DNA of 64,000 bases from Asaia bogorensis. Its GTDB lineage: Bacteria > Pseudomonadota > Alphaproteobacteria > Acetobacterales > Acetobacteraceae. Below, one piece after another: positions 46,003 to 64,000 of the stretch. The DNA lies in contig CAMBMS010000007.1 in NCBI GenBank assembly GCA_945868845.1, positions 1 through 64,000 of the forward strand. The letters are read 5' to 3'. The translations under genes were made by a program, and so were the position numbers. Below the pieces are notes generated by a model. That model was given only the letters and a program-made list of their open reading frames with translations, did not search any database and had not been told where the DNA came from. Each line of letters opens with the position of its first letter. Within the stretch, counting starts at the first letter, position 1.

Positions 46003-46136
46003 GGATGTTATCCTCCTCATGTTGGATCCAATCTGCCGCAATCCGTTCCCACTTCCAAGTCCCGTGCGTCGGTTCAAGTCTGGCACTAACCCGCCCCCCT
46101 ACCCCTTCGCACGTCATTGCCGCCGAATCGCCATCT

Positions 46137-47126: not shown

Positions 47127-47129
47127 CAC

Positions 47130-48017: not shown

Positions 48018-48032
48018 ACAGGAGAGCGACGC

Positions 48033-49271
48033 ATGATCCGCCCGTACACAATCTATCGGCGTTCCACGTTGCTGACCGCTTCCGCGCTGATGCTCGCGCC
48101 ACGCATGGCGTGGGCGCAGGACCGCCGCCCCAGCCAGCCATCGCCCGCCCCACGCCCCCGCCCCCCCGCGCCCAGCACCACCAACAGCGGCCCAGCGCAG
48201 ACCCCGCTCGGCACGCTCGACACGGCGGCGAAGTTCGCCTTGGCGATCGATTTCACCACTGGCGCGATCCTGCTCGATAAGGGTGGCGACATGCCGATGC
48301 CGCCTTCCTCGATGACGAAGCTGATGACCGCCTATCTCGTCTACGAGGCCCTGAAATCGGGGCGATTGAAACTCACCCACGAACTCAGCGTCAGCGAGCG
48401 CGCCTGGCGCATGGGTGGGTCGAAAATGTTCGTCCAGGTCGGCAACAATGTGAAGGTGGAAGATCTGATCCGCGGCATGATCGTCCAGTCCGGCAACGAC
48501 GCCTGCATCGTCCTCGCCGAGGCGCTGGCCGGCTCGGAAGAAAACTTCGCCGAGCAAATGACCGCAAAGGCACGCGAGCTGGGCCTGGCAAGTGCCACTT
48601 TTCGCAATTCCACCGGCTGGCCGGATCCCTCGCATCGCATTTCGCCACGCGATCTGGCGCTGCTAGCAAAGCGGATTATCCTGGATTTTCCCGAATATTA
48701 TCACTACGATTCAGAAAAATCTTTTAAATACAATGGAATTGAACAAGAAAACCGTAATCCCCTGGTGCAAAAGGGTGTGGCTGACGGATTAAAGACCGGC
48801 CATACCGAGGAGGGCGGATATGGCCTGGTTGCGTCCTCCCTGCGTGCCGGACGGCGGGTGATCCTGGTTATCAACGGCCTCACCTCCAAGCGCCAACGCG
48901 CCGAAGAGGCGGGGCGGCTGATGGAATGGTGTTTCCGCGAATTCGAGAACGTGGCCCTGTTCCGGGCAAGCGATGTGCTGGACAAGGCCCCGGTCTGGCT
49001 GGGCGAGGCGCCAACCGTCCCGCTGGTGCCGGGGCACGATCTTGTCCTGACCCTGCCGCGCAACTGGCGGCGCAATGCTCAACTATCCATACGTTTCGAC
49101 GCGCCAGTGAAAGCCCCGGTGGCCAAGGGAGACCGACTCGGCACGATCACGGTCGGCGGACAGGGCGTGCCGCCGACAGAACTACCATTGCTGGCTGGCG
49201 CAGATGTGCCAAGACTGGGCTTACCTGGACGCGCCATAGCGGTGCTGACCCGGATGCTTGGCAAGGGATAG
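48033..49271 (+). CDS. dacC: D-alanyl-D-alanine carboxypeptidase (PBP5/6 family)
   Basis: This 412-residue protein has a signal peptide (to about AWAQ, residue 29), a proline-rich linker, then the serine-peptidase S11 domain. SxxK is at Ser93-Lys96 (PPSSMTKLMTAY), SGN at 153-155 (VQSGNDACI) and KTG at 254-256 (DGLKTGHTEEGGYG). A C-terminal PBP5_C domain and membrane-associating tail follow. It trims terminal D-Ala from peptidoglycan stem peptides. The gene lies 15 bp after rlpA and 5 bp before tmk. Confidence 0.92.
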   Translation: MIRPYTIYRRSTLLTASALMLAPRMAWAQDRRPSQPSPAPRPRPPAPSTTNSGPAQTPLGTLDTAAKFALAIDFTTGAILLDKGGDMPMPPSSMTKLMTAYLVYEALKSGRLKLTHELSVSERAWRMGGSKMFVQVGNNVKVEDLIRGMIVQSGNDACIVLAEALAGSEENFAEQMTAKARELGLASATFRNSTGWPDPSHRISPRDLALLAKRIILDFPEYYHYDSEKSFKYNGIEQENRNPLVQKGVADGLKTGHTEEGGYGLVASSLRAGRRVILVINGLTSKRQRAEEAGRLMEWCFREFENVALFRASDVLDKAPVWLGEAPTVPLVPGHDLVLTLPRNWRRNAQLSIRFDAPVKAPVAKGDRLGTITVGGQGVPPTELPLLAGADVPRLGLPGRAIAVLTRMLGKG

Positions 49272-49276
49272 CTTGC

Positions 49277-49900
49277 GTGGCCGGACATTTCCTGACCTTT
49301 GAGGGTGGCGAGGGCGCCGGTAAATCGACCCAGGCGCGATTGCTGGCCGCTGCGCTCTGCGCGCGGGGCTTGCCGGTGCTACGGACTCGCGAACCTGGCG
49401 GCACGCCGGGAGCCGAACGGCTGCGCGCGTTGTTGCTCGGCGGTGAAACCGACTGGTCCGCGCCGGCGGAAGCATTGTTACACTTCGCCGCCCGCGCGGA
49501 ACATATCGAGCGTAGCATCCGGCCGGCGCTGGATGCCGGATTTTGGGTGATTTGCGATCGGTTCAGTGATTCGACCCTTGCCTACCAGGGCTATGGCCAG
49601 GGCGCGGACCGCGGCCTAATTCGCCAACTTGGCAGGTTGATGAATCTCGTGCCTCACATGACATTTATCCTAAATATATCTGATGATATAGCAAAATATC
49701 GCCTTTTTCACCGTGGCGAAGATGCCGACCGCTATGAACGGTTAGACGCTTTCTTCCATTCCAGGGTGAATGTCGGCTTCCGCGACATCGCCGCCGCCGC
49801 CCCCGAGCGCTGCGTGCTCGTCGCCGCGGATGGCAGTGAGCACGCGGTGCACCAATCCATCATGACGGCGCTGCAGCATCGGCTGGACGTGCCGGCATGA
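49277..49900 (+). CDS. tmk: Thymidylate kinase
   Basis: GTG 49277 is the start that fits the fold (AGHFLTFEGGEGAGKSTQAR); the protein has 207 residues. The P-loop is GGEGAGKST, followed by the dTMP-binding TREPGGTPGAERLR and the DRFSDSTLAYQGYGQGAD segment. It makes dTDP from dTMP. Codon use at 49660-49720 is locally AT-rich (NISDDIAKYR). The last 4 bp overlap holB, the standard tmk-holB coupling. Confidence 0.95.
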   Translation: MAGHFLTFEGGEGAGKSTQARLLAAALCARGLPVLRTREPGGTPGAERLRALLLGGETDWSAPAEALLHFAARAEHIERSIRPALDAGFWVICDRFSDSTLAYQGYGQGADRGLIRQLGRLMNLVPHMTFILNISDDIAKYRLFHRGEDADRYERLDAFFHSRVNVGFRDIAAAAPERCVLVAADGSEHAVHQSIMTALQHRLDVPA

Positions 49901-50907
49901 GCGCGTCGGTACCGCGCGCCAATCCATTGCTGTTCGGCCATGCGGCTGCGGAAGCCATCCTGGCGGACGCAGCGCGCTCGGGCCGGCTGCATCATGCCTG
50001 GTTGATCACCGGACCAGAGGGCGTGGGTAAGGCCACCCTCGCCTATCGTTTTGCTCGCCGCCTGCTTGCTGGCTTACCCGACGAACAATCACTGGCGCTG
50101 GATGCGGCCCATCCCGTATTCCGCCGCGTCGCCGCCGGCGCGCATGCCGACCTGCTGACCGTCGAGCTGGCCTATGACGACAAGCGCAAGCGCATGCGGG
50201 CGCAGATTTCGGTGGACGATGTCCGTCGCATCTCCGCCTTTATGGCCCTCACGCCGGCCGAGGGCGGCTGGAGGGTGGCGATCGTCGATGGCGCGGAAAA
50301 CCTGAACCAGAACTCAGCCAATGCGCTGTTGAAAATCCTGGAGGAACCACCACGGCGCGCCATCCTCCTCCTGGTTTGTTCCTCCCCCGGTACGCTCTTG
50401 CCCACCATCCGCAGCCGCTGCCGCCGGCTGGCCCTGGCGCCATTGGACGATGAGGCGATGGCGGGGGCATTGGCGGCCTATCTGCCGAACGTGGACGCCG
50501 ATGAACGCACCCGCCTTGCCGACCTGGCGGATGGCGCGCCGGGCCGGGCCTTGCTGTTGGCGGACGCCGAAGGCATTTCGGTGGCCCGGCTGGTGGATGA
50601 CGTGCTGGCCGATTTGCCCGCCATCGGGGCCGGGCGCGGCTATGCTGTAGCGGATGCGCTGGGGCGCAGCGACACGGGCTTTTCCACCTTCATGGACCTC
50701 CTCCGTGCCGCCATCACCGCCGCCGTACGCGCGGCCGCGCGCGGCCGCGCCGACCCCGACCAGCAACGTCTCGCCGCCCTGCTGCCCCTGGCTGGCTGGG
50801 CGGAGCTATGGCACACGCTGACCCGGCTGCAAGACGAAACCGAACGCTTCGCACTGGACAAGCGGCAGGCACTGGTCCAGGCCCTCGGCTTGCTACCCCA
50901 TCGCTAG
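49897..50907 (+). CDS. holB: DNA polymerase III delta' subunit
   Basis: This 336-residue AAA+ clamp-loader subunit shows HHAWLITGPEGVGKATLAYR with the variant P-loop GVGKAT, VDDVRRISAFMALTPAEGGW, ENLNQNSANALLKILEEPPR (delta' signature) and the SRC-type sensor SRCRRL. It acts in the clamp loader with DnaX and HolA. It overlaps tmk by ATGA and precedes metG by 9 bp. Confidence 0.93.
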   Translation: MSASVPRANPLLFGHAAAEAILADAARSGRLHHAWLITGPEGVGKATLAYRFARRLLAGLPDEQSLALDAAHPVFRRVAAGAHADLLTVELAYDDKRKRMRAQISVDDVRRISAFMALTPAEGGWRVAIVDGAENLNQNSANALLKILEEPPRRAILLLVCSSPGTLLPTIRSRCRRLALAPLDDEAMAGALAAYLPNVDADERTRLADLADGAPGRALLLADAEGISVARLVDDVLADLPAIGAGRGYAVADALGRSDTGFSTFMDLLRAAITAAVRAAARGRADPDQQRLAALLPLAGWAELWHTLTRLQDETERFALDKRQALVQALGLLPHR

Positions 50908-50916
50908 AGATTTTTT

Positions 50917-52455
50917 ATGACCAAGCGCTGCTACATCACCACCCCAATTTATTACGTGAATGGTGCGCCGCATATAGGCCACGCCTATACCTCTATCGCG
51001 ACCGACGTAATGGCCCGCTTTAAGCGCCTGGATGGCTATGACGTTTTGTTCGTCACCGGCACCGACGAACATGGCCAGAAGGTGGAAAAAGCGGCGCGCG
51101 ACGCCGGCATGGACACGCATGCCTTCACCGACAAGGTTTCCGCCGATTTCCGCGCCATGGCCGATGCCATGGGCATTTCCTATGACGATCATATCCGCAC
51201 TACGGAAGACCGCCACAAGCGTTCCTGCGCCGAACTCTGGAAACGCATCGCGGCGTCCGGCAACATCCATCTGGGGCATTACGAAGGCTGGTACGCTGTG
51301 CGCGACGAGGCTTTTTACGATGAGGGAGAGCTGACAACGCGCCCTGATGGAACCAAAGTCGCTCCCTCCGGTGCCCCGGTCGAATGGGTCCGCGAGCCTA
51401 GTTATTTTTTCAAACTGTCCGAATGGCAGGACAAGTTGTTGAAATTCTATGAGGACAATCCCGACTTCATCGCCCCGACTTCTCGGCGCAATGAAGTTTT
51501 AAGCTTTGTCCGTGGCGGCCTGCTCGATCTTTCGATCAGCCGCACCACCTTCGATTGGGGCATTCAGGTGCCGGGCGCGCCCGGCCATGTGATGTATGTC
51601 TGGCTAGATGCGCTGACCAATTACATCACTGCCGCCGGGTTCCCCGATGAGACGACCGAAACCTGGCAAAAATTCTGGCCTGCCGATGTGCATTTCGTTG
51701 GCAAGGACATTATCCGGTTTCACGCCGTCTACTGGCCCGCTTTCCTGATGGCCGCCGGCATCGCGCTGCCGAAGCGCATTTCCTCGCATGGCTGGTGGGT
51801 GGTGGACGGCGAAAAAATGAGCAAATCCGTCGGCAACGTGATCGCGCCACGCACATTGGCGGAAACCTACGGCCTCGATCAGATCCGCTTTTTTCTGCTG
51901 CGCGAAAAACCCTTCGGCACCGATGGATCTATGAGCCACTCCGCCATCGTCAACCGCATCAACACCGAGCTGGCGAACGATCTCGGCAATCTCGCCCAGC
52001 GCACACTCTCGCTCATCGCACGCAATTGCGCCTCCATGCTGCCTGCCTTTGGCGCAGAAACGGACGCAGACCGGGATTTACTGGCTGCCGCCAATGCCCT
52101 GCCCAACCAGCTACGTGCCGCTATTGACCGCCAGGATTTCCATGAAGCGCTGGAAGATGTGTGGAAAGTCATCCGCGCCTGCAACGCCTATATCGACCAC
52201 CAGGCTCCCTGGGCCTTGCGCAAGACCGATATCGCCCGCATGGGTGTGGTGTTGTACGTGCTGGTCGGTGCGCTGCGCGTGATTGCCACCGTGTTGCAAC
52301 CCTTCATGCCCAGCAGCATGGCAAAGATGCTGGATCAGCTCGGCGTGGCCGCCGACGCGCGCAACCTGGCCGCATTGGCCACGCCCCTCGCGGAGGGCAC
52401 GGTCCTGCCGCCGCCGCAGGGCGTGTTTCCGCGTTACGTGGAGCCAGCGCTCTAA
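50917..52455 (+). CDS. metG: Methionyl-tRNA synthetase
   Basis: This 512-residue class I synthetase has HIGH at residues 19-22 (NGAPHIGHAYTSIATD) and KMSKS at 300-304 (DGEKMSKSVGNVIAP). The anticodon-binding helical domain contains NTELANDLGNLAQRTLSLIA and the DHQAPWALRKTD element. The short form without the C-terminal EMAP/Arc1p domain is usual in Alphaproteobacteria. Its stop TAA overlaps, tail to tail, the stop of a small minus-strand gene. Confidence 0.96.
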   Translation: MTKRCYITTPIYYVNGAPHIGHAYTSIATDVMARFKRLDGYDVLFVTGTDEHGQKVEKAARDAGMDTHAFTDKVSADFRAMADAMGISYDDHIRTTEDRHKRSCAELWKRIAASGNIHLGHYEGWYAVRDEAFYDEGELTTRPDGTKVAPSGAPVEWVREPSYFFKLSEWQDKLLKFYEDNPDFIAPTSRRNEVLSFVRGGLLDLSISRTTFDWGIQVPGAPGHVMYVWLDALTNYITAAGFPDETTETWQKFWPADVHFVGKDIIRFHAVYWPAFLMAAGIALPKRISSHGWWVVDGEKMSKSVGNVIAPRTLAETYGLDQIRFFLLREKPFGTDGSMSHSAIVNRINTELANDLGNLAQRTLSLIARNCASMLPAFGAETDADRDLLAAANALPNQLRAAIDRQDFHEALEDVWKVIRACNAYIDHQAPWALRKTDIARMGVVLYVLVGALRVIATVLQPFMPSSMAKMLDQLGVAADARNLAALATPLAEGTVLPPPQGVFPRYVEPAL

Positions 52456-52616
52456 TTTTTTTCCGGCTTGCTCTGGTCACGCGCGCGCGCCTGCTGCTTG
52501 CGTTTGCGCAAATTCTCCCGCAGCGCCGCCGCTTCGCGTTCCTGCCGTGCCTTGCGATCGGCCTCAGCCCTCGGTGTGGCCCTCGGTGATGTTCTGGGTG
52601 GTGATTTTCCCGTCAT
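52452..52616 (-). CDS. Small basic helical protein (54 aa)
   Basis: This short ORF starts at ATG 52616 (MTGKSPPRTSPRATPRAEAD) and continues with KARQEREAAALRENLRKRKQ and QARARDQSKPEKN. It has a proline-rich head and one long charged helix. Many alphaproteobacteria have 50-60-residue proteins of this form (R-Q-x-R-E-A-A-A-L-R-x-N-L-x-R-R-K-x-Q), so I think it is real and conserved, with unknown function. It overlaps the metG stop codon convergently by 4 bp. Confidence 0.6.
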   Translation of the reverse strand: MTGKSPPRTSPRATPRAEADRKARQEREAAALRENLRKRKQQARARDQSKPEKN

Positions 52617-53275
52617 GCCGAATTGATGCAAGGAGATCCACCATCGTCAACTGCCCGCGTTCTTCACCACTCGCCGCAGCAAGGCGCAGAGTTGGGAAAC
52701 CGCCAGCCAGAAGGATACATGGCCGGGCCCATTTTCCGGCCCTCCATTTGGCACCAGCTCCCCCGGCGCAAGGTCGCCAACCGTGCCCCGAACCGCAGGC
52801 GTATATTTTCCTGAAAGGCATTGGAGGCCAGATCGGCGATCCTGCGCGCCACCCGCAGGGTGCGTGAGCAGCCGCGCGGCGAAAATTTCAATCGGTCCAT
52901 CGCCTGCTCGGCCAGGGCCTGAGCATCCGGGGTGAGCTCGATGGCGGCGGGATCGGCCCCGGTATTGCTGGTGGCGCCGTCCTCACCATAGCGGGCAAGC
53001 TGGCGGGCTTGCCAGCGAGTTATCGGAACAATATCTGGTGGCCAGCTCGGAGACGGTAAGCTGGAAAGACGTGGCGGAGGCCTCGGCCTTCTGCCACCGC
53101 ATGCCGGGGCACGTCCTGGCATAAGCCCATTTTCCAAGATCCGCGGTAGTTATTGGCTCGCTTGGGGTATGAAAAGCTTGCAGGGGCTTAACCGGATTGT
53201 CATGCTCGCCCACATGCGATAGCGCCCGGTTGCGATTGGGCCGCCGACCGATAGGATGGCCGCCAAGATAATAAA
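52617..53275. other. Debris region after metG, with ComM scrap
   Basis: About 660 bp with no intact gene. A ComM/YifB scrap lies at 52826-53014 and the rest is unrecognisable in all frames. In related genomes tatD often follows metG; it is not here. Confidence 0.5.
52826..53014 (-). pseudogene. ComM/YifB Mg-chelatase-like C-terminal fragment
   Basis: The frame reads LTPDAQALAEQAMDRLKFSP then RGCSRTLRVARRIADLA. This matches the C-terminal helical segment of ComM/YifB (typically ...LSARGYHRVLRVARTIADL). Neither the AAA+ core before it nor the usual end after it is present; the sequence on either side is unrelated. It is a residual fragment of a gene lost from this site. Confidence 0.6.
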
Positions 53276-53290
53276 ATGAGGAGACGAGCG

Positions 53291-54277
53291 ATGCCGCGAC
53301 TTTGGTTAAGTTGGCTGACGACGGGGCTCACATTGGCGGCCGGGATCGGTTTGAACGCCGGGATGGCTGTGGCTCAGGTAAGCTGGCCGACGCGCCCGGT
53401 GCGCGTGATCGTGCCCTATGCGCCGGGATCGGGGACCGATTTCATCGTACGCAGCGTGGCGGACCGGATTTCCCGCCAGACTGGGCAGCAATTCGTGGTG
53501 GAGCATCGCGGCGGCGGCACCGGAACCCTGGGCACGGAATCGGTAGTGAAGTCGGCACCCGATGGCTACACGCTGTTGATGACGCCGCAGGCGCCGATCG
53601 TGGTGCTGCCGCATTTGCGCAAGCTGGCTTACGATCCGCTGAATGATTTGGTGGGCGTGGCGCGGTTCGGGGAAGTGATCGCGGGTTTCGCCGTGCATCC
53701 CTCGCTGGGCGTGAAGAGCATAGCGGAGTTCGTGGCGCTGGCGAAGAAGACGCCAGGTAAGATCACGTTCGTGTCCGCGGGCGTCGGATCGGTGAACCAT
53801 CTGCGCGGAGAGACATTGAAGCTGATGTCCGGGATCGATTTGCTGCACATCCCCTATCGCGGTAATGGCGAGGCGGTGCCGGATTTATTAAGTGGCGTGG
53901 TGCATGGGATGTTCGATTCTATCGTATTTCCTCATGTGAAAGCCGGTAAGCTGGTGCTGCTGGCAATTTTGGATGATGAACGTTATTCTGAATTTCCCGA
54001 TGTGCCGACGATAAAGGAACAGGGATTTCCGGAGTTTGAAATTCCGATCTGGGTGGGGGCCTATGCGCCGGTTGGGGTGCCGCAGCCGATTATCGAGCGG
54101 CTGCATAAGGAAATCGCCACCTTGTATAGCGACGCGGAGTTTCGCGAGCGGCTGTTTGTCGCTGGGTGGCGGATCTACAAGCAGGCTGATTCCCTGCCGG
54201 AGTTTCGGACACGTTTGGCGAAGCAATCGGCGACGTTCGCCGATCTGATTAGGCGGGCGGATATTAAGATGGATTGA
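53291..54277 (+). CDS. Bug-type (TctC) periplasmic solute-binding protein
   Basis: ATG 53291 has the ribosome-binding site gaggagacgag; the earlier ATG at 53276 forms part of that site. The protein has 328 residues with a signal peptide (to about AGMAVAQ). Family signatures are WPTRPVRVIVPYAPGSGTDF, FVVEHRGGGTGTLGTESVVK, APDGYTLLM and GSVNHLRGETL. Bug proteins bind carboxylates for tripartite tricarboxylate transporters or act as orphan receptors. No TctA/TctB genes are next to it. It opens the plus-strand set leading to the sulfite dehydrogenase. Confidence 0.88.
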   Translation: MPRLWLSWLTTGLTLAAGIGLNAGMAVAQVSWPTRPVRVIVPYAPGSGTDFIVRSVADRISRQTGQQFVVEHRGGGTGTLGTESVVKSAPDGYTLLMTPQAPIVVLPHLRKLAYDPLNDLVGVARFGEVIAGFAVHPSLGVKSIAEFVALAKKTPGKITFVSAGVGSVNHLRGETLKLMSGIDLLHIPYRGNGEAVPDLLSGVVHGMFDSIVFPHVKAGKLVLLAILDDERYSEFPDVPTIKEQGFPEFEIPIWVGAYAPVGVPQPIIERLHKEIATLYSDAEFRERLFVAGWRIYKQADSLPEFRTRLAKQSATFADLIRRADIKMD

Positions 54278-54301
54278 CGGAGAAAAGTAGAGGTAAATAT
54301 C

Positions 54302-55630
54302 ATGGCCATGCGTCGCGAACACAGTATCACTGAACTTTACACCAGCGATCCGGAACGCGCAGACGCGCTAATTTTTAAACGCCACGTCCCACCCTCCCGG
54401 CGTGGCTTCCTGCAAGGCGCCGGCCTTGCCGCGATGGGCGCGGCTTTGGGGGGAAGCATTCCGTTCGCGCGCCACATGCCTGCCGGGCTGTTGCCCGCGG
54501 CCTTCGCGCAAGCGCCTGGCGCGGCACCGATCAAGCTCGATTTCCCTGGCAAGGATCCGGGCCTCGTCGTGCTGGGCGAACGTCCCCTGGTGGCGGAGAC
54601 ACCCGAACATCTTCTGGACGCGGACACGACGCAGACGGCGCGCTTCTTCATCCGTAATAACGGCCAGATTCCCGATCCGATCACAACGCCCGATAGCTGG
54701 GCCATCAGGATCGATGGCGAGGTCAATACGCCGCTGGAACTGAAACTCGGCGAACTCAAGCAGCGTTTCCAACCAAGAACCTACCGCATGGTACTGGAAT
54801 GCGGCGGCAATGGCCGTTCTTTCTATTCGCCCACCGCGCGCGGCAATCAATGGACCAATGGCGGCGCCGGCTGCGCGGAATGGACCGGCGTGGCGTTAAA
54901 GGATGTACTCGCCGCCTCGGGGCTGAAACCGTCGGCGAAATTCACCGGCCATTATGGTGGCGACACTCATCTTTCTGGCGACCCCGCCAAGGATGTCCTC
55001 TCGCGCGGCATGCCGATCGCCAAGGCGCTGGAGGAGCATACGTTGATCGTCTGGGCGATGAATGGCGAGCCGCTGAGCAATATCCATGGCGGGCCGGCGC
55101 GTTTGCTGGTGCCAGGCTGGGCTGGCTCCCTTTCTTCCAAATGGCTGAAACGTATTTGGGTGCGCGAAACGGCCCATGATGGCCAGGGCATGGGCGGCAC
55201 CTCCTATCGCGTTCCCGTCGCACCGATCGTGCCGGGATCCAACAAAGACGGCAAAGATTTCCGCGATCTGGAATCGATGCCTGTACGGTCGATCATCACC
55301 AACCCAGCCAGTGGTACCAAACTGCCCGCCGGCTCGCGCGCCCTGGCGTTGCGCGGGGCCGCATGGGCCGGCGATGCGGGGGTACAACGAACGGAAATTT
55401 CCCTTGATTACGGCCAGACCTGGCAGACCGCCATCCAGGCCGCGCCTAAAAATCGCTACGATTGGGTGCGCTGGACGCACAACGCGGTCCTACCGAGCGA
55501 TGGCTATTTCGAGCTATGGGTGCGCGCCACCGCCAGCGATGGGCGCACCCAGCCGCTGATCGCCCCCAACTGGAATCCACAAGGCTATGGCGGCAATCCA
55601 ATCAACCGCATCGCGGTGTTGGTCGGCTGA
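54302..55630 (+). CDS. Periplasmic sulfite dehydrogenase, molybdenum subunit (SorA/SoxC-like)
   Basis: This 442-residue protein has a Tat leader (PSRRGFLQGAGLAAMGAALG) and the sulfite-oxidase fold. The molybdenum-binding Cys167 lies in VLECGGNGRSFY. ARGNQWTNGGAGCAEWTGVA and WAMNGEPLSNIHGGPARLLV belong to the substrate/cofactor site. The C-terminal Mo-co dimerisation domain contains TEISLDYGQTWQTA. The length and GGNGRS motif are closest to SoxC/SorA types, which oxidise sulfite to sulfate in the periplasm. It is followed after 9 bp by a small cytochrome c, its likely electron acceptor. No soxYZ/AX/B genes are in the window. Confidence 0.9.
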   Translation: MAMRREHSITELYTSDPERADALIFKRHVPPSRRGFLQGAGLAAMGAALGGSIPFARHMPAGLLPAAFAQAPGAAPIKLDFPGKDPGLVVLGERPLVAETPEHLLDADTTQTARFFIRNNGQIPDPITTPDSWAIRIDGEVNTPLELKLGELKQRFQPRTYRMVLECGGNGRSFYSPTARGNQWTNGGAGCAEWTGVALKDVLAASGLKPSAKFTGHYGGDTHLSGDPAKDVLSRGMPIAKALEEHTLIVWAMNGEPLSNIHGGPARLLVPGWAGSLSSKWLKRIWVRETAHDGQGMGGTSYRVPVAPIVPGSNKDGKDFRDLESMPVRSIITNPASGTKLPAGSRALALRGAAWAGDAGVQRTEISLDYGQTWQTAIQAAPKNRYDWVRWTHNAVLPSDGYFELWVRATASDGRTQPLIAPNWNPQGYGGNPINRIAVLVG

Positions 55631-55639
55631 AGCCCGATC

Positions 55640-55990
55640 ATGCGTGGCATTTTCATTGGGCTGATGCTGTTGCTGGTTCCAGCGCTCGGCATGGCGCAGA
55701 GCGGTTTTCAGCCACGCGACGAAAACGAAGCCGATTACCCCGATCACCCCGGCCGCGCAGAAAGCTTTGGCTTTTGCGGTTCCTGCCACGGTTTTCGCAT
55801 TGTCGCTGTCCAGGGCATGACACGCACACAGTGGGATGTATCCCTGACCTGGATGAGCCAGCGACACAACATGCCCGATCTGGACAAGGCCGACCGCGAT
55901 CTGATCCTAGAGTATCTGAGCAAAGCCTATCCACCCAGGCTCTCGCCCGCGGGCCGGCCAGACTGGCGTGCTCCTTTCGCACCGCAATAA
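55640..55990 (+). CDS. Small c-type cytochrome, partner of the sulfite dehydrogenase
   Basis: This 116-residue protein has a signal peptide (MRGIFIGLMLLLVPALGMAQ) and one heme-c motif, CGSCH (Cys46, Cys49, His50). The distal ligand is probably Met78 in QRHNMPDL. The motif ILEYLSKAYPPR is a common cytochrome c end helix. Located 9 bp downstream of the molybdenum subunit; in SorAB and SoxCD systems the corresponding cytochrome is the direct electron acceptor. Confidence 0.85.
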   Translation: MRGIFIGLMLLLVPALGMAQSGFQPRDENEADYPDHPGRAESFGFCGSCHGFRIVAVQGMTRTQWDVSLTWMSQRHNMPDLDKADRDLILEYLSKAYPPRLSPAGRPDWRAPFAPQ

Positions 55991-56103
55991 GCCGAACTTC
56001 TCCTGTAACCGCCACTACCCCCACGCGGCCCGGGCTTGCACCGGGCGCCTGAATGCGCGCCACTGGCTTTCATATCAACACCCTACATCGCGAAAGTGCG
56101 TCC

Positions 56104-57903
56104 ATGAACCATTCTGTCACCACGCCTGAAATCAACACCGACAACGATCGGCGCAACGCCATCAGCCACTGGCTGGAAAGCTTCGAGAATGCGTTGCATG
56201 CAGGTGACGCGGCGAGGCTAGCAACGCTGTTCGCCGTCGAATGCCATTATCGCGATCTGCTCGCATTTTCCTGGAGCATTCGCCCCGCGCAGAGCGCGCA
56301 CGATATCGCCAGATTTCTAATCGACACACAGCCCACTATCCACGCACGCGACTTCGCCATTGCCGACGGCCGCACACAACCACGGTCTGTGCGCCGCCTC
56401 GGCATCAGCGTAATCGAGGGCATTTTCCGGTTCGAGACCGCGCTCGGTCGCGGCCAAGGCGTGGTGCGGCTCCTGGAGGAAAACCCTACCCAGGCCTGGG
56501 TGCTGATGACCGGCCTCGACGAACTTAAAGGCCATGAGGAAAAAATCGGTGCCCGCCGACCCAGCGGCGAGGCATATTCACGTAATTTTGGCGGTGATAA
56601 CTGGCTCGACCAGCGCAATAAATCACGTGCCTATGCCGATCGCGATCCAGTGGTGCTTATCATCGGCGCCGGCCAATCGGGCCTCGCCGCAGCGGCGAGG
56701 CTGGGACAGCTCGATGTGGATACCCTGGTCGTCGATAAATATCCGCGCGTTGGCGATAACTGGCGTTCGCGCTATCACTCCCTGGCCCTACATAATCAGA
56801 TCCACGTAAACCACCTGCCCTATATGCAGTTTCCACCAACCTGGCCGAAATACATCCCCAAGGACATGCTCGGGAATTGGCTGGAGATGTATGCCGATGC
56901 CATGCAGATCAATTGCTGGACCGGCACCGAATTTCGCGCCGGCAGCTATGACGCGGCCGCCAAGCGCTGGAATGTCACCTTGCGCCGCGAAAATGGTTCG
57001 GAACGCGTGATGCATCCACGCCACATCGTCTTCGCCAACGGCACCAGCGGCATCGCCCGCGTGCCCGATTTGCCAGGGCTGAGAGACTTCAAGGGCGATG
57101 TGATGCATTCGCACGGCTTCTCCAGTGGCATCGCCTGGAAGGGAAAGCGGGCGTTGGTGCTAGGCACCGGCAATAGTGGGCATGACGTGGCGCAGGATCT
57201 GCACAGCCATGCGGTGGACACCACCATCATCCAGCGTGGCTCCACTACCGTCGTCAGTATCGATCCCAGCGCTAAGCTGAATTATGCGCTGTATGAGGAA
57301 GGCCTACCGCTGGAGGATTCTGATCTTATCGCCACCGCCACGAGCTATCCGCTGCTAATCCGCGGCTATCAGGCGGCGATGAAGAGAATGTTTGAATACG
57401 ACAAAGAGCTGATCGCCAATTTGCAGGCGCGCGGCTTCCGCTGGGATGCGGGTGAGGATGGAACAGGCCACCAGATGAAATATCGCCGGCGTGGCGGCGG
57501 CTATTACCTCGATGCTGGCTGCTCGCAACTGATCATCGATGGCGAGGTCGGCCTCATGCAGTTCGACGACATCGAACGGTTTGTTGCGGAGGGCGCCCTG
57601 ATGAAGGATGGCACGGTGCATAAAGCGGATCTTTTGGTCACCGCCACCGGCTATTATTCGCAACAGGAACTGGTCCGCCGTTTGCTAGGAGATACCATTT
57701 CCGAACGGATCGGCCCAATCTGGGGCATCGGCGTGGATGGCGAGATGGCGAACATGTTCCGCCGTACCCCGCAACCTGGTGTCTGGTTCATGGGTGGCGG
57801 GTTAGGACAGTGCAGGATCTATTCGAAATACTTAGCCTTGCAGATCAAGGCGATCGAGCTTGGCCTGATCGAGGCTAGCCTGCCCGCCGCAATCAACGCC
57901 TGA
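56104..57903 (+). CDS. Flavin-containing monooxygenase with N-terminal NTF2-like domain
   Basis: With ATG 56104 the protein has 599 residues. Residues 1-150 form a SnoaL/NTF2-like domain (WLESFENALHAGDAARLATL, VVRLLEENPTQAWVLMTGLD). Then comes an FAD Rossmann motif at 188-193 (LIIGAGQSGLAAAARL), the FMO-type segment MHSHGFSSGIAWKGKRALVL followed by the NADPH motif GTGNSG, and LVTATGYYSQ. Class B monooxygenases oxygenate S, N or ketones. Its position after sulfite dehydrogenase and cytochrome genes suggests a sulfur substrate. An earlier in-frame ATG at 56053 exists but matches neither domain. Confidence 0.88.
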   Translation: MNHSVTTPEINTDNDRRNAISHWLESFENALHAGDAARLATLFAVECHYRDLLAFSWSIRPAQSAHDIARFLIDTQPTIHARDFAIADGRTQPRSVRRLGISVIEGIFRFETALGRGQGVVRLLEENPTQAWVLMTGLDELKGHEEKIGARRPSGEAYSRNFGGDNWLDQRNKSRAYADRDPVVLIIGAGQSGLAAAARLGQLDVDTLVVDKYPRVGDNWRSRYHSLALHNQIHVNHLPYMQFPPTWPKYIPKDMLGNWLEMYADAMQINCWTGTEFRAGSYDAAAKRWNVTLRRENGSERVMHPRHIVFANGTSGIARVPDLPGLRDFKGDVMHSHGFSSGIAWKGKRALVLGTGNSGHDVAQDLHSHAVDTTIIQRGSTTVVSIDPSAKLNYALYEEGLPLEDSDLIATATSYPLLIRGYQAAMKRMFEYDKELIANLQARGFRWDAGEDGTGHQMKYRRRGGGYYLDAGCSQLIIDGEVGLMQFDDIERFVAEGALMKDGTVHKADLLVTATGYYSQQELVRRLLGDTISERIGPIWGIGVDGEMANMFRRTPQPGVWFMGGGLGQCRIYSKYLALQIKAIELGLIEASLPAAINA

Positions 57904-57923
57904 ATTTTATCAGGGAGGGGACC

Positions 57924-58766
57924 ATGATGATCATCGACGCCCAGGTGCATGCCTATGAACGCGATCGCCCAGGCCGCCCCTGGGCCGCCGTGCTACATGG
58001 CCCATCCGAAGTAACAGGCGACAACATGGTTCAGGCCATGGATGATGTCGGCGTGGATGGCGCGCTCTTAATCTCGCCTTACACAATGTATCGCCACGAT
58101 GCGTCCTATGCGCTGGAAGTCTATGCTAAAAATCCAGGACGCTTCGGGCTGATCAAGCCGTTCGATCCGAACGATCCCGCCGTCAGCGCCCAGGTCGATG
58201 AATGGGCAAGCCACAAAGGCACGGTGGGCGTGCGCATCATGATGCGCCAGGGAGTCTCCACCGACGCGGCCGACCCCGGCATCAACGCGGTGGCCGCAGC
58301 AGCGCGCAAGCACGACATCCCGCTGAACCTGCTCTGCTACAACCGCCTGCCGCAGGTCTATGCTCTGGCGGCGCGCAACCCCGACACACAATTCGTGATC
58401 GACCATGTCGGGCTGACGCAACCATTCAAGCCCCCGCCACTGGCGGAACCGTGGGCCGATCTGGAGAACGTTCTGAAGGCCGCCGAGATGCCCAATATTG
58501 CGATAAAAATCACAGGCGCATGCACACTCTCGTGTGACGTTTTCCCGTATAAGGACATCTGGGATCCCCTCGCCCGCATTTACGATGCGTTTGGGTTGGA
58601 GCGCTGCCTGTGGGGTACAGACTGGACGCGGGCGACTGGGATTTTAACTTACAAGCAAGGTGTAGATACGTTTCTAGGGATGGACCGCCTATCGGACAGC
58701 GAGAAGGCAATGTTGATGGGTGGAGCGTTGACGCGGATTTATAAATGGATGCCGACAAAGGGCTAG
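57924..58766 (+). CDS. Amidohydrolase-2 family TIM-barrel hydrolase
   Basis: This 280-residue protein starts after agggagggg. It opens with IDAQVHAYERDRPGRPW, has the mid-barrel FVIDHVGLTQP with His, and ends with LWGTDWTRATG with the conserved Asp. The usual metal motif D-x-H-x-H reads D-A-Q-V-H (His replaced by Gln7), a feature of the lactonase/PDC-hydrolase-like side of the family where metals may be absent. It follows the FMO gene by 20 bp, so it probably hydrolyses that pathway's product, perhaps a lactone or ester. Confidence 0.85.
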   Translation: MMIIDAQVHAYERDRPGRPWAAVLHGPSEVTGDNMVQAMDDVGVDGALLISPYTMYRHDASYALEVYAKNPGRFGLIKPFDPNDPAVSAQVDEWASHKGTVGVRIMMRQGVSTDAADPGINAVAAAARKHDIPLNLLCYNRLPQVYALAARNPDTQFVIDHVGLTQPFKPPPLAEPWADLENVLKAAEMPNIAIKITGACTLSCDVFPYKDIWDPLARIYDAFGLERCLWGTDWTRATGILTYKQGVDTFLGMDRLSDSEKAMLMGGALTRIYKWMPTKG

Positions 58767-59210
58767 TGGAGAAAATTTAGCGCGCAGCCAAAGTGTATAA
58801 TTCAAAATCCTGCCCTTTGAGAGAGGGCATGGTCACTCGGACTTGTTGGGCGGGACCACATTAAGTCCAAAGTTTTAAAATGCCGTTTCCTTCCAATCAC
58901 AGGAGCCCCGCACGACCGGAATGTTGAGCTTTATTATTACGCCGCTGGCCAATTCCTGCTATCGATCTGCCACGCCCGAAGTCCATTTTTCATTTGTCTA
59001 TCTGGCCCTGAACTGCCAGTTGACCCGGTCCGGACACGGTGCCAAGGCACCCGACAGATGCTCTTTACCAGCCGTTCGGACGGCTAGCTCGGGGCAACCG
59101 ATTTCTGGCTCATTTTCGCCCCTCGCAGAACTACGATGAGCCGGAAACCCCCTCTCCCTTTACCCCATAAATCTGCCTCACTGATGCTGACCTTAGACAC
59201 CATTCTTACT
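58767..59210. other. About 440 bp without a supported gene
   Basis: Contains a weak hairpin tgccct/agggca (58811-58829) shortly after the amidohydrolase and AT-rich stretches, but only short ORFs. It separates two convergent genes and presumably holds terminators. Confidence 0.4.
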
Positions 59211-60056
59211 TCAGACCCCCCTAAAAACCCCTTGCCGCTTCTCCACAAACGCCTTTCGTGCCTCCTTCGCATCTTCCGAATGCTGTAGGATCGGCGCGGC
59301 GTTTGATGTCAGCACCATCGTCGCCTCTAACGTGCTGTCCACCGCCGTGCGCATGATCCGCTTGGAAATCCATTGCACCAGAGGCGGGATACCCTGCATT
59401 TTCGCGCACATCACGCGCGTGAAAGCTTCCAACTCGTCCGACGGTACCAGATGGTTCAGCATGCCCCATCGATACGCCGTCTCCGCGTCCGTTTGCCCGG
59501 TATAGACAAACTCCAGCGCCCGCCCTAGGCCAATCATCTTTGGCAGATAATAAGACCCACCATTCTCGATAATTTGCCCGGCATTGTGATAGCCGATGAA
59601 CCGCGTCCGCTCGCAGCCGATGCGGATGTCGCAATGTAGCGCCATATCCATCCCCGACCCCACCGCCGGCCCATTGATCATCGCGATCGTCGGCTTGCGG
59701 ATGAGGGAGATGTCCCGGTGCAGATCGGTAAACCCGTGGAAGAAATGCTGTCGAGTTCCCTCCAGCCCAACTTCTGCACTCCGGTTACCCGGAAAATTCT
59801 CCCCTGCGTTATCCTCCACCCGAGACCCCAGATTGGCACCCGAGCAGAATCCCCGCCCCACGCCGGTCAGGATAATCACCCGCACATTCGGGTCATCGTC
59901 ACCCGCGCGCATATATTCGCCCACCTTGGCCACCGTGCCGTTTTCCTCGGCCGTGCCAATCAGCGCGTTCATCTTGTCCGGACGATTGAACTTGATCCAG
60001 AGGATGCCGTTATCCTCGGGTTCGTACAGCAGATAATCTACCAGCCTCGGTCCCAT
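59211..60056 (-). CDS. Enoyl-CoA hydratase/isomerase family protein
   Basis: ATG 60056 preceded by ggaggg gives 281 residues; the longer frame lacks support. The crotonase oxyanion motif is ILTGVGRGFCSGANL and the second loop is MINGPAVGSGMDMALHCDIR, followed by GCERTRFIGYHNAGQIIENG. The start (LLYEPEDNGILWIKFNRPDK) is typical. It hydrates or isomerises enoyl-CoA esters in the cytosol. Positioned 78 bp downstream of the glycosyltransferase gene on the same strand, with no evident link to it. Confidence 0.9.
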   Translation of the reverse strand: MGPRLVDYLLYEPEDNGILWIKFNRPDKMNALIGTAEENGTVAKVGEYMRAGDDDPNVRVIILTGVGRGFCSGANLGSRVEDNAGENFPGNRSAEVGLEGTRQHFFHGFTDLHRDISLIRKPTIAMINGPAVGSGMDMALHCDIRIGCERTRFIGYHNAGQIIENGGSYYLPKMIGLGRALEFVYTGQTDAETAYRWGMLNHLVPSDELEAFTRVMCAKMQGIPPLVQWISKRIMRTAVDSTLEATMVLTSNAAPILQHSEDAKEARKAFVEKRQGVFRGV

Positions 60057-60134
60057 GCGCACGCCCTCCGTTAAGACGGCCAGCATAGAACGCCCCCGCA
60101 ACCGGCGGGAAGCCTCCCCCAAGGGGTCTTTGGC

Positions 60135-61196
60135 TTAGTCGCCGACGGCGCGCAATTGTGGTACTGCGCACGCGCCCAGGCGTTCGTAGACCGACAGATA
60201 ATCCTTCGCCATACGTCGCGCCGTAAAGCGGCGCTCGAACTGCGCGCGCACCTGAGCCCGGCTCAGCAAGGGCACCTGCCTAGCGGCGGCCACGAATGCC
60301 TCCTCGTTGCCCGGCTCGATGATGAAGCCAGTCAGCCCATCGTCGATCACCTCGGGCACGGATCCGCAGCGATAAGCTACCACAGGCGTGCCACAGGCCA
60401 TCGCCTCGATCATCACTAAGCCGAACGGCTCCGGCCAGTCGATCGGGAACATTAGCGCCGTAGCGCCGGATAGGAAGGCCGGTTTCTGCGCGTCATTGAT
60501 CTCGCCGATGAACTCCACATGGCCTTGGCACAACAACGGCTTGATCTGGCTTTCGTAATATTCCTTGTCGGCGTTATCCACCTTCGCCGCAATCTTCAGC
60601 TTCATGCCGCATTGCGCCGCCACACGGATCGCCCGGTCCAGCCCCTTTTCCGGGGAAACACGGCCGAGGAACGCGAAATAATCCTGCTTCACAGGCTGCG
60701 GCATTAGAAGCTCGGTCGGCATACCGTGATGCACCGTCTTCACCCAGTTCTGCCGCGGCAGGGGGAGACGCTGATTGTCGGAAATGGAGACTAGCGGCAC
60801 ATCCAGGAATGTCTCGTACACCGCCCTGAATTCCGGCAGGTCCAGCCGGCCATGCATGGTGGTCACGAACGGCGTGCTCTGGTGGCTGAAGGTGGAGAAG
60901 GGGAAGTAATCGATGTGGAAATGGATAACATCAAACTCATGGGCGCGCCGGCGGATCAGCTCCACCATGCGCATGTAATAGGACACCCAGTCCCGCACGG
61001 AGGGGTCCAGCCGGATCGCCTGTTCGATCATCGGATCAAGCTTGGCCGAGGTTACCGAATCACCCGACGCGAACAGGGTCACATCGTGCCCCATTTGCAC
61101 CAATTCCTCCGTCAGCCACCACACCACGCGTTCTGTGCCACCATAAAGCTTCGGCGGTACAGCCTCAAACAACGGTGAAACCTGTGCGATGCGCAT
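60135..61196 (-). CDS. Family 4 glycosyltransferase
   Basis: Of the two ATGs (61205, 61196) the second is 8 nt from aagggg and starts directly at MRIAQVSPLFEAVPPKLYGG. The GT-B fold is clear: an N-terminal acceptor domain with TERVVWWLTEELVQMGHDVT, a C-terminal donor domain with FLGRVSPEKGLDRAI, and the E-x7-E motif in PEPFGLVMIEAMACGTPVVA. The nucleotide sugar and acceptor are unknown. It is divergent from an ABC exporter gene followed by otsA, so a trehalose or glucan link is possible. Confidence 0.88.
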   Translation of the reverse strand: MRIAQVSPLFEAVPPKLYGGTERVVWWLTEELVQMGHDVTLFASGDSVTSAKLDPMIEQAIRLDPSVRDWVSYYMRMVELIRRRAHEFDVIHFHIDYFPFSTFSHQSTPFVTTMHGRLDLPEFRAVYETFLDVPLVSISDNQRLPLPRQNWVKTVHHGMPTELLMPQPVKQDYFAFLGRVSPEKGLDRAIRVAAQCGMKLKIAAKVDNADKEYYESQIKPLLCQGHVEFIGEINDAQKPAFLSGATALMFPIDWPEPFGLVMIEAMACGTPVVAYRCGSVPEVIDDGLTGFIIEPGNEEAFVAAARQVPLLSRAQVRAQFERRFTARRMAKDYLSVYERLGACAVPQLRAVGD

Positions 61197-61217
61197 CCCA
61201 TCCACCCCTTGTGCTCA

Positions 61218-61239
61218 CGTGACTAGCTCGTGACTAGCT
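61218..61239. repeat. Tandem 11-bp direct repeat in divergent promoter region
   Basis: cgtgactagct occurs twice back to back (61218-61228, 61229-61239), just upstream of the glycosyltransferase start codon. It may be an operator or a chance duplication. Confidence 0.4.
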
Positions 61240-61376
61240 ATAGGCCTAGCGCGCCGCACGATTGACCGCGTGCGTCGCGGGCGTCTATCAGGGCGGAAGT
61301 TAGGGGCAGAATGTGGCGAAATCTCGGCACAACTGGCGTGGATTCTTGGCGCTAGACGGAGCACCAGATTGGGCAG

Positions 61377-63212
61377 ATGAAAAGAGCACCCCAAGACATG
61401 CCGCCGCGCGTTGAGCCTGCGACCCTGGCTGGTATCGCCGCCGCCGAGAGCGCCGCCCTGGTCGCGCTGCGCCATCGGCCACTGGGCTTCCTGTTCCGAT
61501 ACGTCCGCCGCCATCCGCTGGGCCACACGGTGATTCTGCTCAGTGTGATCGCCGCCGTGATCTGCTCGGTTTTCACCCAGTACGGCGTAAAAAATCTGGT
61601 GGATTCCGTGTCCGGGCGTGACGTCTGGGGCGGTACCTGGGGCGCCTTCGCGCTCCTCTGCCTGCTTATCGCGGCAGACGTTTTGTTGTGGCGGCTGGCC
61701 GGCTTCGTGCTGGCGCCCACTTTCACCGCCGTCACCACCGGTGTGCGCGCCGATTTATTCGCCCATCTGGCGGGCCATGCCCCCAGCTACTTCGCCGAAC
61801 ACCTGCCCGGCGCCCTGGCCAGCCGCATCAGCGCGGCGGCAAATGCGGTGTTCACCTTGGAGAGCGCCAGCATCTGGAATGTGATTCCACCGGTGGTCGC
61901 CGTCACCTCTGCGATACTCCTGATTAGCTCGGTCAATCCAACCATGGCCTTGGCACTGGTTGGCCTGGCCGGTAGCATCATCGCCCTAGTGTTCTATATC
62001 GCCCGTAATGGCGCCCCCTTGCATCGCCGCTTCGCCAACGGCGCGGCGGCGGTGGATGGGGAACTGGTGGACGTGATCGGCAATTTTTCTGCCGTGCGCG
62101 CCTTTGGCGGCATCCAGCGCGAACGCCAACGCATGGAAGGCACCGTGGGCCGCGAAACTCGCGCGCGCCGGCGCAGCATTTATTACCTGGAATGGCTCCG
62201 CCTGCTGCACGCCGTGCTCACCACCTTGCTGACGGCGGGGCTTGTCGCCTGGGGCATTGCGATGTGGGAACGCGGCGAGGCCACGCCGGGGGACCTGGTG
62301 CTGATTGTCTCCCTTGGCTTCACCATCCTGCACAGCTCTCGCGATCTCGCTGTCTCACTAGTAGACATGATCCAGTATCTCGCGCGGCTGGAGGAGGCCC
62401 TCGCCGTGCTTCTGAGCGCCCATGAATTGCCGGACAGCCCCACGGCGCACGCTCTGCGCCTCGGCCCCGGGGAGGTCCGGTTCGAAAATGTACGCTTCGC
62501 CTATCCCGGCAGGAGTGAGATTCTGCCTGGTCTCGATCTCATCATCCCGGCCGGACAGCGCATCGGGCTGGTTGGCGCATCCGGGGCTGGAAAATCAACA
62601 CTACTGACCCTGCTGCAACGCTTCTACGTTCCGCTATCGGGCCGTGTGCTGATCGATGGGCAGGATATTTCCGAGCTCACGCAAGCCAGCCTGCGCGACG
62701 CCCTGGCAATTGTCCCGCAGGATGTCTCGATGTTCAATCGATCCCTGCTGGTCAATCTCCGCTACGCCCGGCCCAACGCCAGCACGGCCGATGTCATCCG
62801 CGCCGCCGACATGGCCCGGTGCCGGGATTTCATCGAGGCCCTGCCCCACGGCTTCGCCACCATGGTCGGCGATCGCGGTACCAGCCTGTCCGGCGGCCAG
62901 CGCCAGCGTCTTGCTATCGCGCGCGCCGCACTGAAAGATTCCCCCATTTTGCTGCTCGATGAAGCCACCTCCGCGCTCGACAGCGAATCCGAGCGCGCAG
63001 TGCAGGACGCGCTGGAAACGCTGATGGCCGGGCGCACGGTGATCGCCATCGCGCATCGTCTGTCCACATTGCAGCGCTTCGACCGCATCGTGGTCATGGA
63101 TCGCGGCTGCATCGTCGACGATGGCACTCCCGCGGCCCTCGCCACCCGGCCAGGCCCGTATTGGGATCTGCTATCGAAACAGTCACTGGCCAGCGCAAGG
63201 GCCCCAGCCTAG
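61377..63212 (+). CDS. ABC exporter, fused permease-ATPase
   Basis: This 611-residue half-transporter has about six helices in the first 340 residues (including TVILLSVIAAVICSVFTQYG and VVAVTSAILLISS). The nucleotide-binding domain has Walker A GASGAGKST at about residue 400, Q-loop IVPQDVSMF, signature LSGGQRQR, Walker B ILLLDEATSALD and the H-loop AIAHRLS. It works as a homodimer or with another half to export lipids, peptides or saccharides. It lies 28 bp upstream of otsA on the same strand. Confidence 0.92.
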   Translation: MKRAPQDMPPRVEPATLAGIAAAESAALVALRHRPLGFLFRYVRRHPLGHTVILLSVIAAVICSVFTQYGVKNLVDSVSGRDVWGGTWGAFALLCLLIAADVLLWRLAGFVLAPTFTAVTTGVRADLFAHLAGHAPSYFAEHLPGALASRISAAANAVFTLESASIWNVIPPVVAVTSAILLISSVNPTMALALVGLAGSIIALVFYIARNGAPLHRRFANGAAAVDGELVDVIGNFSAVRAFGGIQRERQRMEGTVGRETRARRRSIYYLEWLRLLHAVLTTLLTAGLVAWGIAMWERGEATPGDLVLIVSLGFTILHSSRDLAVSLVDMIQYLARLEEALAVLLSAHELPDSPTAHALRLGPGEVRFENVRFAYPGRSEILPGLDLIIPAGQRIGLVGASGAGKSTLLTLLQRFYVPLSGRVLIDGQDISELTQASLRDALAIVPQDVSMFNRSLLVNLRYARPNASTADVIRAADMARCRDFIEALPHGFATMVGDRGTSLSGGQRQRLAIARAALKDSPILLLDEATSALDSESERAVQDALETLMAGRTVIAIAHRLSTLQRFDRIVVMDRGCIVDDGTPAALATRPGPYWDLLSKQSLASARAPA

Positions 63213-63240
63213 GCTCGCCGCAAAGAACGGGAGAAAAACG

Positions 63241-64000
63241 TGCCGCGCCTGGTGGTGGTATCCAACCGCGTCGCGCCCATCACGGAAGGTCAGCCGACCT
63301 CCGGCGGCCTTGCCGCCGGCGTGATGGATGCGTTGAAACAAAGCGGCGGTATCTGGTTCGGCTGGAGCGGGGAAATCACCCAGGATGCCGTCGCCTGCGA
63401 TCCCACCGCACAAAGCCTCGGTTCGGTCGAGCTGCACACGATCGATCTGACACAGCGCGATTACAACGAATACTATCGGGGCTTCTCCAACGACGCGCTG
63501 TGGCCCGTGCTGCATTACCGGCCCAACCTCGCGCGCCTCAGCTGGGGCGCCTTTGCCGGCTATCGCCGCGTCAACACGCTGTTCGCCCGATCGGTTGCGA
63601 AACTGCTGCAACAAAACGATCTAATCTGGGCGCATGATTACCATCTATTTCCCCTCGCCGAGGCCCTGCGGGCGGAGGGCGTGAACAATCGCATCGGCCT
63701 GTTTCTACACACCCCCTTCCCCGCCCCGCAGATCTACATGACAATCCCATCCCACGCGGAGATCGCGGCGGCGCTGTGCCATTATGATTTGCTGGGGTTC
63801 CAGACCGAGACCGACCGTCTCGCCTTCGAGGACTATATTGTCCGCTCCGCCAATGGCAGCGCCGCGCAAGGCATCATCTCCGCCTTTGGGCGTACGGTTA
63901 AGACCGGTGTCTATCCCATCGGCGTTCATGTTGATGAGGTACGCGCCCAAGCCACCGATCCCACCAACCAGCGAGCGGCGGCGCAATTACGTGCCTCCGT
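63241..64000 (+). CDS. otsA: Trehalose-6-phosphate synthase (partial, runs off window)
   Basis: GTG 63241 after gggagaaa begins PRLVVVSNRVAPITEGQPTS and then GGLAAGVMDAL, the GT20 start with the glucose-6-phosphate-binding Gly-Gly-Leu. Then come GIWFGWSGE, NEYYRGFSNDALWPVLHY, WAHDYHLFPLAEALR and GLFLHTPFPAPQIY. The reading frame is open to base 64000, about 253 codons; the UDP-glucose-binding C-terminal half lies beyond the window. It makes trehalose 6-phosphate for osmoprotection. The partner phosphatase otsB is not seen here. Confidence 0.93.

Follow-up and report, generated by a model that had tools for sequence, protein, structure and literature searches.

The window analyzed here is a stretch of 64,000 nucleotides, bases 1-64000 of contig C7 in a 3.2-Mb Asaia bogorensis genome (G000; assembly GCA_945868845.1). 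The system in question is a run of five genes that a first-pass annotation had read as one organosulfur oxidation route, in which a monooxygenase and a hydrolase release sulfite and a periplasmic dehydrogenase oxidizes it. All five open reading frames were confirmed as consecutive on the + strand, and domain profile matches and, for the cytochrome, its CGSCH motif bore out the family assigned to each protein, as follows:

53276-54277, + strand: Bug/TctC-type periplasmic solute-binding protein (PF03401, TctC, 191.6 bits), optional and outside the sulfite module
54302-55630, + strand: molybdopterin enzyme, very probably a sulfite dehydrogenase of a SorA-like subfamily, with predicted twin-arginine translocation (Tat) export (PF00174 and PF03404 domains)
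55640-55990, + strand: small c-type cytochrome with a single CxxCH (CGSCH motif), putative SorB-like electron acceptor
56053-57903, + strand: class B flavin monooxygenase (FMO), predicted type IIb with a SnoaL domain (8ACS, JsFMO, alignment E 8.6e-118)
57924-58766, + strand: TIM-barrel hydrolase of the Amidohydro_2 family, lactonase-like (PF04909, 93.2 bits)

The gene boundaries agreed with those annotated before, apart from the first start, since 53291 is only the in-frame Met6 of the Bug reading frame 53276-54277. For the FMO, Met18 at 56104 is a likelier start than 56053. The intergenic gaps are, in order, 24, 9, 62 (113 when counted from FMO Met18), and 20 bases. Taken together with the evidence below, this arrangement quite probably represents a tandem of two modules that are independent of each other and a further, optional gene, with a sulfite detoxification pair standing beside a Baeyer-Villiger monooxygenase/hydrolase pair.

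The molybdopterin enzyme and the small cytochrome form a genuine module. The cytochrome gene starts 9 bases 3' of the sulfite enzyme, and relatives of the latter keep this order: a CxxCH frame was found within 1.5 kb downstream and on the same strand in 57 of 58 loci (20 from the family, 15 from the phylum, 12 from the class, and 11 from plasmids), in a survey that drew on samples of 150 genomes from the family, 398 from the phylum, and 106 from the class. Such a frame was rare in the controls: upstream of the sulfite enzyme it occurred in 2 of 58 loci, downstream of the FMO in 2 of 67, and downstream of the hydrolase in 2 of 26. The count is based on stop-to-stop frames of 60-330 codons, with a shorter search where the contig ended, and leaves out L272 (a duplicate of L210), the divergent paralogues L120, L121, and L131, the fragments in G115, and the SorA-like L259-L262. 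The cytochrome itself scored 23.8 bits with the NCBIfam SorB model, below the cut-off of 93, and matched PDB 2blf_B at E 0.0063.

The sulfite enzyme contains the Pfam domains Oxidored_molyb (166 bits) and Mo-co_dimer (49.5 bits), and the Tat signal model was matched with 20.8 bits (cut-off 16.7). None of the NCBIfam models of the named families was reached: SorA gave 233.9 bits (cut-off 600), SorT 198.1 bits (cut-off 570), and SoxC 161.3 bits (cut-off 420). The closest solved structures are a putative sulfite oxidase (6y0k) and SorA (2blf), the similarity to the latter extending over the full length with an E value of 4.2e-47. The motifs ECGGNGR and GNQW are common to the enzyme and its relatives, and the former stretch is retained with its cysteine and arginine; at the position of the SorA motif RYH the window's enzyme has RNN, which is present in 6y0k too. 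In a tree of 67 rows, which has no SorT row and omits L036, L281, and L004, the enzyme fell within a clade of 48 rows (support 100/98), to which neither the SoxC clade (100/100) nor the group with the sole SorA row above its cut-off belongs. Single-sequence structure predictions were poor, with a mean predicted local distance difference test score of 31.8 for the sulfite enzyme and 47.2 for the hydrolase.

The surroundings of the relatives point to sulfite as the substrate. Relatives of the enzyme were found on 33 plasmid records, and the annotation around 11 of them was examined. In two of these (Paracoccus sp. TOH and MA), xsc is annotated within 2.5 kb upstream, and the TOH gene was confirmed by TIGR03457 with 929 bits; Xsc activity releases sulfite. 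A sigma factor lies downstream of the relative on one further record, a Nitratireductor plasmid, and neither FMO nor Amidohydro_2 is named in any of the 11 annotation tables, which the collection itself describes as incomplete. Homologues of extracytoplasmic function (ECF) sigma factors were detected near the sulfite enzyme in 9 of 52 loci (L043, L046, L056, L216, L265, L266, L269, L271, and L273), a count for which the queries were taken from L265 and L273, both among the nine, and in which some loci have a flank of only ~1.5 kb. No ECF sigma-factor match was found in positions 46001-64000 of the window. ECF genes upstream of a sulfite-enzyme operon, with sulfite as the inducing signal, are described for sorT and sorAB in the available excerpt of PMC6527743. 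Periplasmic sulfite oxidation is accordingly the best-supported function of the molybdopterin enzyme and its cytochrome and very probably the correct one, in line with what had been claimed for the dehydrogenase at the outset. The window's enzyme belongs to a separately branching SorA-like subfamily that occurs in several proteobacterial families and is followed, in nearly every case, by a CxxCH gene. The sole member scored against the SorA, SorT, and SoxC models, that of the window, falls short of all three cut-offs.

The FMO gave Pfam matches to Pyr_redox_2 (55.4 bits) and FMO-like (54.5 bits) and aligned nearly end to end with JsFMO (8ACS) over residues 27-605. An N-terminal extension of ~160 residues of the SnoaL/NTF2-like kind is indicated by the start of this alignment at residue 27 and of the FAD-domain matches at 201; the domain scan reported no separate Pfam SnoaL match for it. 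According to the excerpt available for PMC7570161, such an extension is the mark of type IIb FMOs. The columns of JsFMO His216, Tyr458, and Arg571 show no variation among the 75 aligned sequences, of which the window's protein is one, and Asp217, which adjoins the catalytic His, is replaced by Asn in all 75; the residues were mapped by counting by hand from the pairwise alignment. According to the accessible part of PMC10028610, Asp217 may have a marginal role, and JsFMO is an efficient converter of cyclobutanones, acts on norcamphor with high selectivity, and performs poorly with sulfides, sulfoxidation being favoured by the shorter type II FMOs that lack the N-terminal domain. Dimethyl sulfide is oxidized in Acinetobacter baylyi by two-component monooxygenases, unlike the enzyme type found here, as far as the excerpt of PMC13352529 describes. 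By its sequence, the window's protein belongs to type IIb and is similar to JsFMO; its probable reaction is the insertion of oxygen into a ketone (Baeyer-Villiger oxidation). In a few loci of its relatives, a catabolic cluster of FMO, short-chain dehydrogenase/reductase, carboxymuconolactone decarboxylase, and amidohydrolase was seen (L308, L309, L310, and L227), the first two of which also have Bug genes in the vicinity. Membership of the window's FMO in a conserved cluster of this composition was considered and rejected: the cluster is present in the three annotated plasmid records L308-L310 and in L227, but neither in the window nor in most of 77 loci of relatives.

The hydrolase missed the cut-off of the fuconolactonase model (47.3 bits; cut-off 400) as well as that of the 4-sulfomuconolactone hydrolase model (38.3-39 bits; cut-off 500), the latter being a sulfite-releasing enzyme. 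No known enzyme that cleaves C-S bonds was recognized among the five window proteins with Pfam and NCBIfam profiles. The combination of a Baeyer-Villiger enzyme with a hydrolase that then acts on the ester or lactone is well known, and by analogy the FMO and the hydrolase would constitute such a pair. Elsewhere in the genome, a TauD-family gene is directly followed by the genome's best match to the 4-sulfomuconolactone hydrolase model (L302, 595-2319; 111 bits against the cut-off of 500).

Linkage between the sulfite pair and the FMO/hydrolase pair was then examined by tblastn in flanks of usually ~8 kb a side, several of which were shortened by contig ends (3.2 kb in total for L024). These results are independent of the gene calls in our neighbour tables, which were scored on GC at codon positions and missed the anchors in L055, L122, L123, and L178. 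Neither FMO nor hydrolase was present in the flanks of the sulfite enzyme (0 of 20 family and 0 of 15 phylum loci). A sulfite enzyme of the window's type was found in none of the flanks of 74 FMO loci (33 + 41, nine of the latter being named contigs; the window locus is excluded and the genus's own second FMO copy is included) and a sulfite enzyme in none of those of 30 hydrolase loci (26 + 4), while an FMO occurred in the latter only in L122 and L123, besides a 24% match in L138. The single-contig genome G365 (7.15 Mb) has a relative of each of the three enzymes (62, 54, and 55% identity), located at ~4.76, 2.64, and 0.98 Mb and thus more than 1.5 Mb apart. With a profile built from Amidohydro_2 relatives, a frame of this family was detected within 5 kb of the FMO in 9 of 68 loci (seven of these frames share the strand of the FMO, three score under 100 bits, and most belong to subfamilies other than that of the window's hydrolase) and within 5 kb of the sulfite enzyme in 0 of 45. 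This count excludes the nine named contigs L005-L013; three of the nine positive loci are plasmid loci chosen for being annotated, and the training set of the profile contained some of the nine, the loci in or eligible for it including L122, L123, and L308-L310. The proposal that the FMO and hydrolase feed sulfite to the dehydrogenase is therefore left without co-conservation in 74 FMO, 30 hydrolase, and 35 sulfite-enzyme loci; what the relatives largely show, where the FMO has a hydrolase nearby, is a cluster that does not include the dehydrogenase, much as the first-pass annotation had said would count against its proposal. Because relatives almost never carry them together, we infer that the five genes are not one pathway.

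The Bug receptor had also been regarded as a pathway member, and the sister genome speaks against this. The genus sample consists of two genomes, the window's and G077; L004, a contig of an Acetobacteraceae metagenome-assembled genome (isolate Baikal-deep-G67), was taken as contig C40 of G077, the coordinates matching. It aligns at 99.5-99.8% up to window position 53222 and again from 54284 (99.7% overall on both flanks), and the 1061 bases in between (53223-54283), comprising the entire Bug gene, are cleanly absent around its position 5856. This may reflect a gain in the window's genome, a loss in the sister, or an assembly error in either. Bug genes were found in the flanks of 3 of 35 sulfite-enzyme loci (L049, L057, and L058), each ~4-5 kb away on the opposite strand, and other Bug paralogues, ~70% identical in DNA, occur in G000. 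The Bug gene is thus a lineage-variable gene and not part of the sulfite module.

Our preferred reading can be put together as follows. In module A (54302-55990), which would resemble SorAB, the Tat-exported enzyme would act in the periplasm, turning sulfite into sulfate and handing the electrons to the small c-type cytochrome encoded by the next gene, mainly to detoxify sulfite of whatever source. In module B (56053-58766), the FMO and the hydrolase, whose genes are separated by 20 bases and which are presumably both located in the cytoplasm, would act in sequence: the monooxygenase would insert oxygen into a ketone, and the hydrolase would open the ester or lactone so formed, making its carbon available for catabolism. 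As a lineage-variable gene, Bug would stand outside both modules. Sulfite could be supplied by other genes of the genome, none of which is linked to this locus. Side by side at ~19.4-21.4 kb of contig C14 (L301, 1163-3233) are genes for SoxZ-family (65.8 bits), SoxY-family (105.8 bits), and flavocytochrome c sulfide dehydrogenase-type flavoprotein (161.7 bits) products, all over their Pfam cut-offs. The first two may not be Sox proteins of thiosulfate oxidation, because their scores fall short of what NCBIfam requires of the true proteins (SoxY 105.6 bits, cut-off 125; SoxZ 61.8 bits, cut-off 76). For SoxC, nothing in the genome reached E 1e-60, the remaining sox genes not having been searched for. 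Within the window, a TauD-family dioxygenase gene (7667-8542, - strand; 247 bits against a taurine dioxygenase cut-off of 313) adjoins genes of major facilitator superfamily transporters.

Some observations weigh against this reading. Two loci from one genus, L120 and L121, have a paralogue of the sulfite enzyme (41%) at a distance of 4-8 kb from an FMO, with opposite-strand frames between them. Only one other genus, that of L122 and L123, has a hydrolase of the window's own subfamily near an FMO; the two lie ~3 kb apart with other frames between, and the FMO is a 46-48% relative. Both genomes of the genus have the sulfite pair and the FMO/hydrolase pair adjacent on one strand; adjacency in two such genomes says little as evidence of conservation, and a joint unit of A and B specific to this lineage is possible. 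Moreover, JsFMO and its relatives show some sulfoxidation, according to the excerpt of PMC10028610. This sulfoxidation and the adjacency in both genomes, together with the consecutive order and short gaps of the genes, the weak match of the hydrolase to the 4-sulfomuconolactone hydrolase model, and the placement of two sulfite-enzyme relatives among sulfonate genes, would favour the original idea that Bug captures a sulfonate, sulfone, or sulfide, from which the FMO/hydrolase pair frees sulfite for oxidation by the periplasmic enzyme. We regard it as decidedly improbable. Apart from the lack of co-conservation and the sister genome without Bug, both sulfonate clusters observed rely on xsc rather than FMO, and the hydrolase has 39 bits where the sulfite-releasing enzyme requires 500. 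In addition, FMO and hydrolase have no signal peptide by eye and the dehydrogenase is exported; therefore sulfite would need export from the cytoplasm. A version restricted to this lineage, with 54302-58766 as one pathway in which FMO and hydrolase act on a cyclic ketosulfonate or a compound resembling a sulfolactone and the sulfite set free is removed by the dehydrogenase of the new subfamily, is highly improbable.

It is also quite unlikely that the molybdopterin enzyme is some other member of the sulfite oxidase fold with a cytochrome partner, acting for example on another oxyanion. Its scores far below the SorA, SorT, and SoxC cut-offs, the distinct clade in the tree (SorT not being represented), and RNN in place of RYH would fit such an enzyme; the xsc and ECF sigma-factor neighbours of some relatives, the retained cysteine and arginine of ECGGNGR, and the nearest solved structures, which are sulfite oxidases, argue for sulfite, and RNN is shared with 6y0k, deposited as a putative sulfite oxidase. 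Compatible with two modules, though unlikely, is that 54302-58766 forms one transcription unit serving unrelated needs, such as protection from sulfite in the habitat of the ketone substrate. Its four genes share a strand, no terminator-like site is listed in 55990-56104, and the fold there is unremarkable (z 0.31), but the gap is 62-113 bases and no coupling was seen in the relatives searched. We thus favour two modules and an optional gene. This sets right an attractive annotation: genes that adjoin on the same strand of a single genome are not for that reason a pathway. Gene content, domains, spacing, the linkage of enzyme and cytochrome, the lack of linkage of A with B in relatives, and the presence or absence of Bug were observed directly, while the reactions, the substrates, and the separateness of A and B as pathways are inferred.

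On the 5' side, the five genes are bordered by holB and metG, and beyond the hydrolase an enoyl-CoA hydratase-family gene and a glycosyltransferase gene are found on the opposite strand. A remnant with the C-terminal Mg-chelatase domain PF13335 (43.7 bits), presumably ComM-type, occupies 52664-53137 (- strand) in an otherwise gene-poor stretch, and in this area, near window position 53000, L004 has ~80 extra bases. The intergenic segment 59052-59205 has copies at 71-80% identity elsewhere in the genome (twice in C2 and once in C10), folds somewhat better than shuffled sequences (z -1.94), and resembles a dispersed repeat.

Among the literature matches listed, no description of such a five-gene arrangement was found, which is not proof of its absence. 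The sulfite pair is most like PDB 2blf, the SorAB sulfite:cytochrome c oxidoreductase of Starkeya novella, in having a molybdenum enzyme followed by a small c-type cytochrome, in the full-length similarity, and in the ECF sigma-factor homologues near 9 of 52 loci of its relatives; it differs in its scores below the SorA and SorB cut-offs, its separate clade, RNN instead of RYH, and the lack of an ECF match in 46001-64000. The Paracoccus sp. TOH and MA plasmid clusters (xsc, sulfite oxidase, and cytochrome, with pta in MA) share a ~52% identical sulfite enzyme and the cytochrome gene, but have a dedicated sulfonate-cleaving enzyme that has no counterpart among the five proteins of the window. 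For the FMO, the closest known enzyme is JsFMO of Janthinobacterium svalbardensis (PDB 8ACS), with the same SnoaL-like N-terminal domain and monooxygenase part and the same His, Tyr, and Arg; the Asp beside its catalytic His is Asn in each of the 75 aligned sequences, that of the window among them. The hydrolase shares family PF04909 with L-fucono-1,5-lactonase and 4-sulfomuconolactone hydrolase and widely misses the equivalog cut-offs of both.

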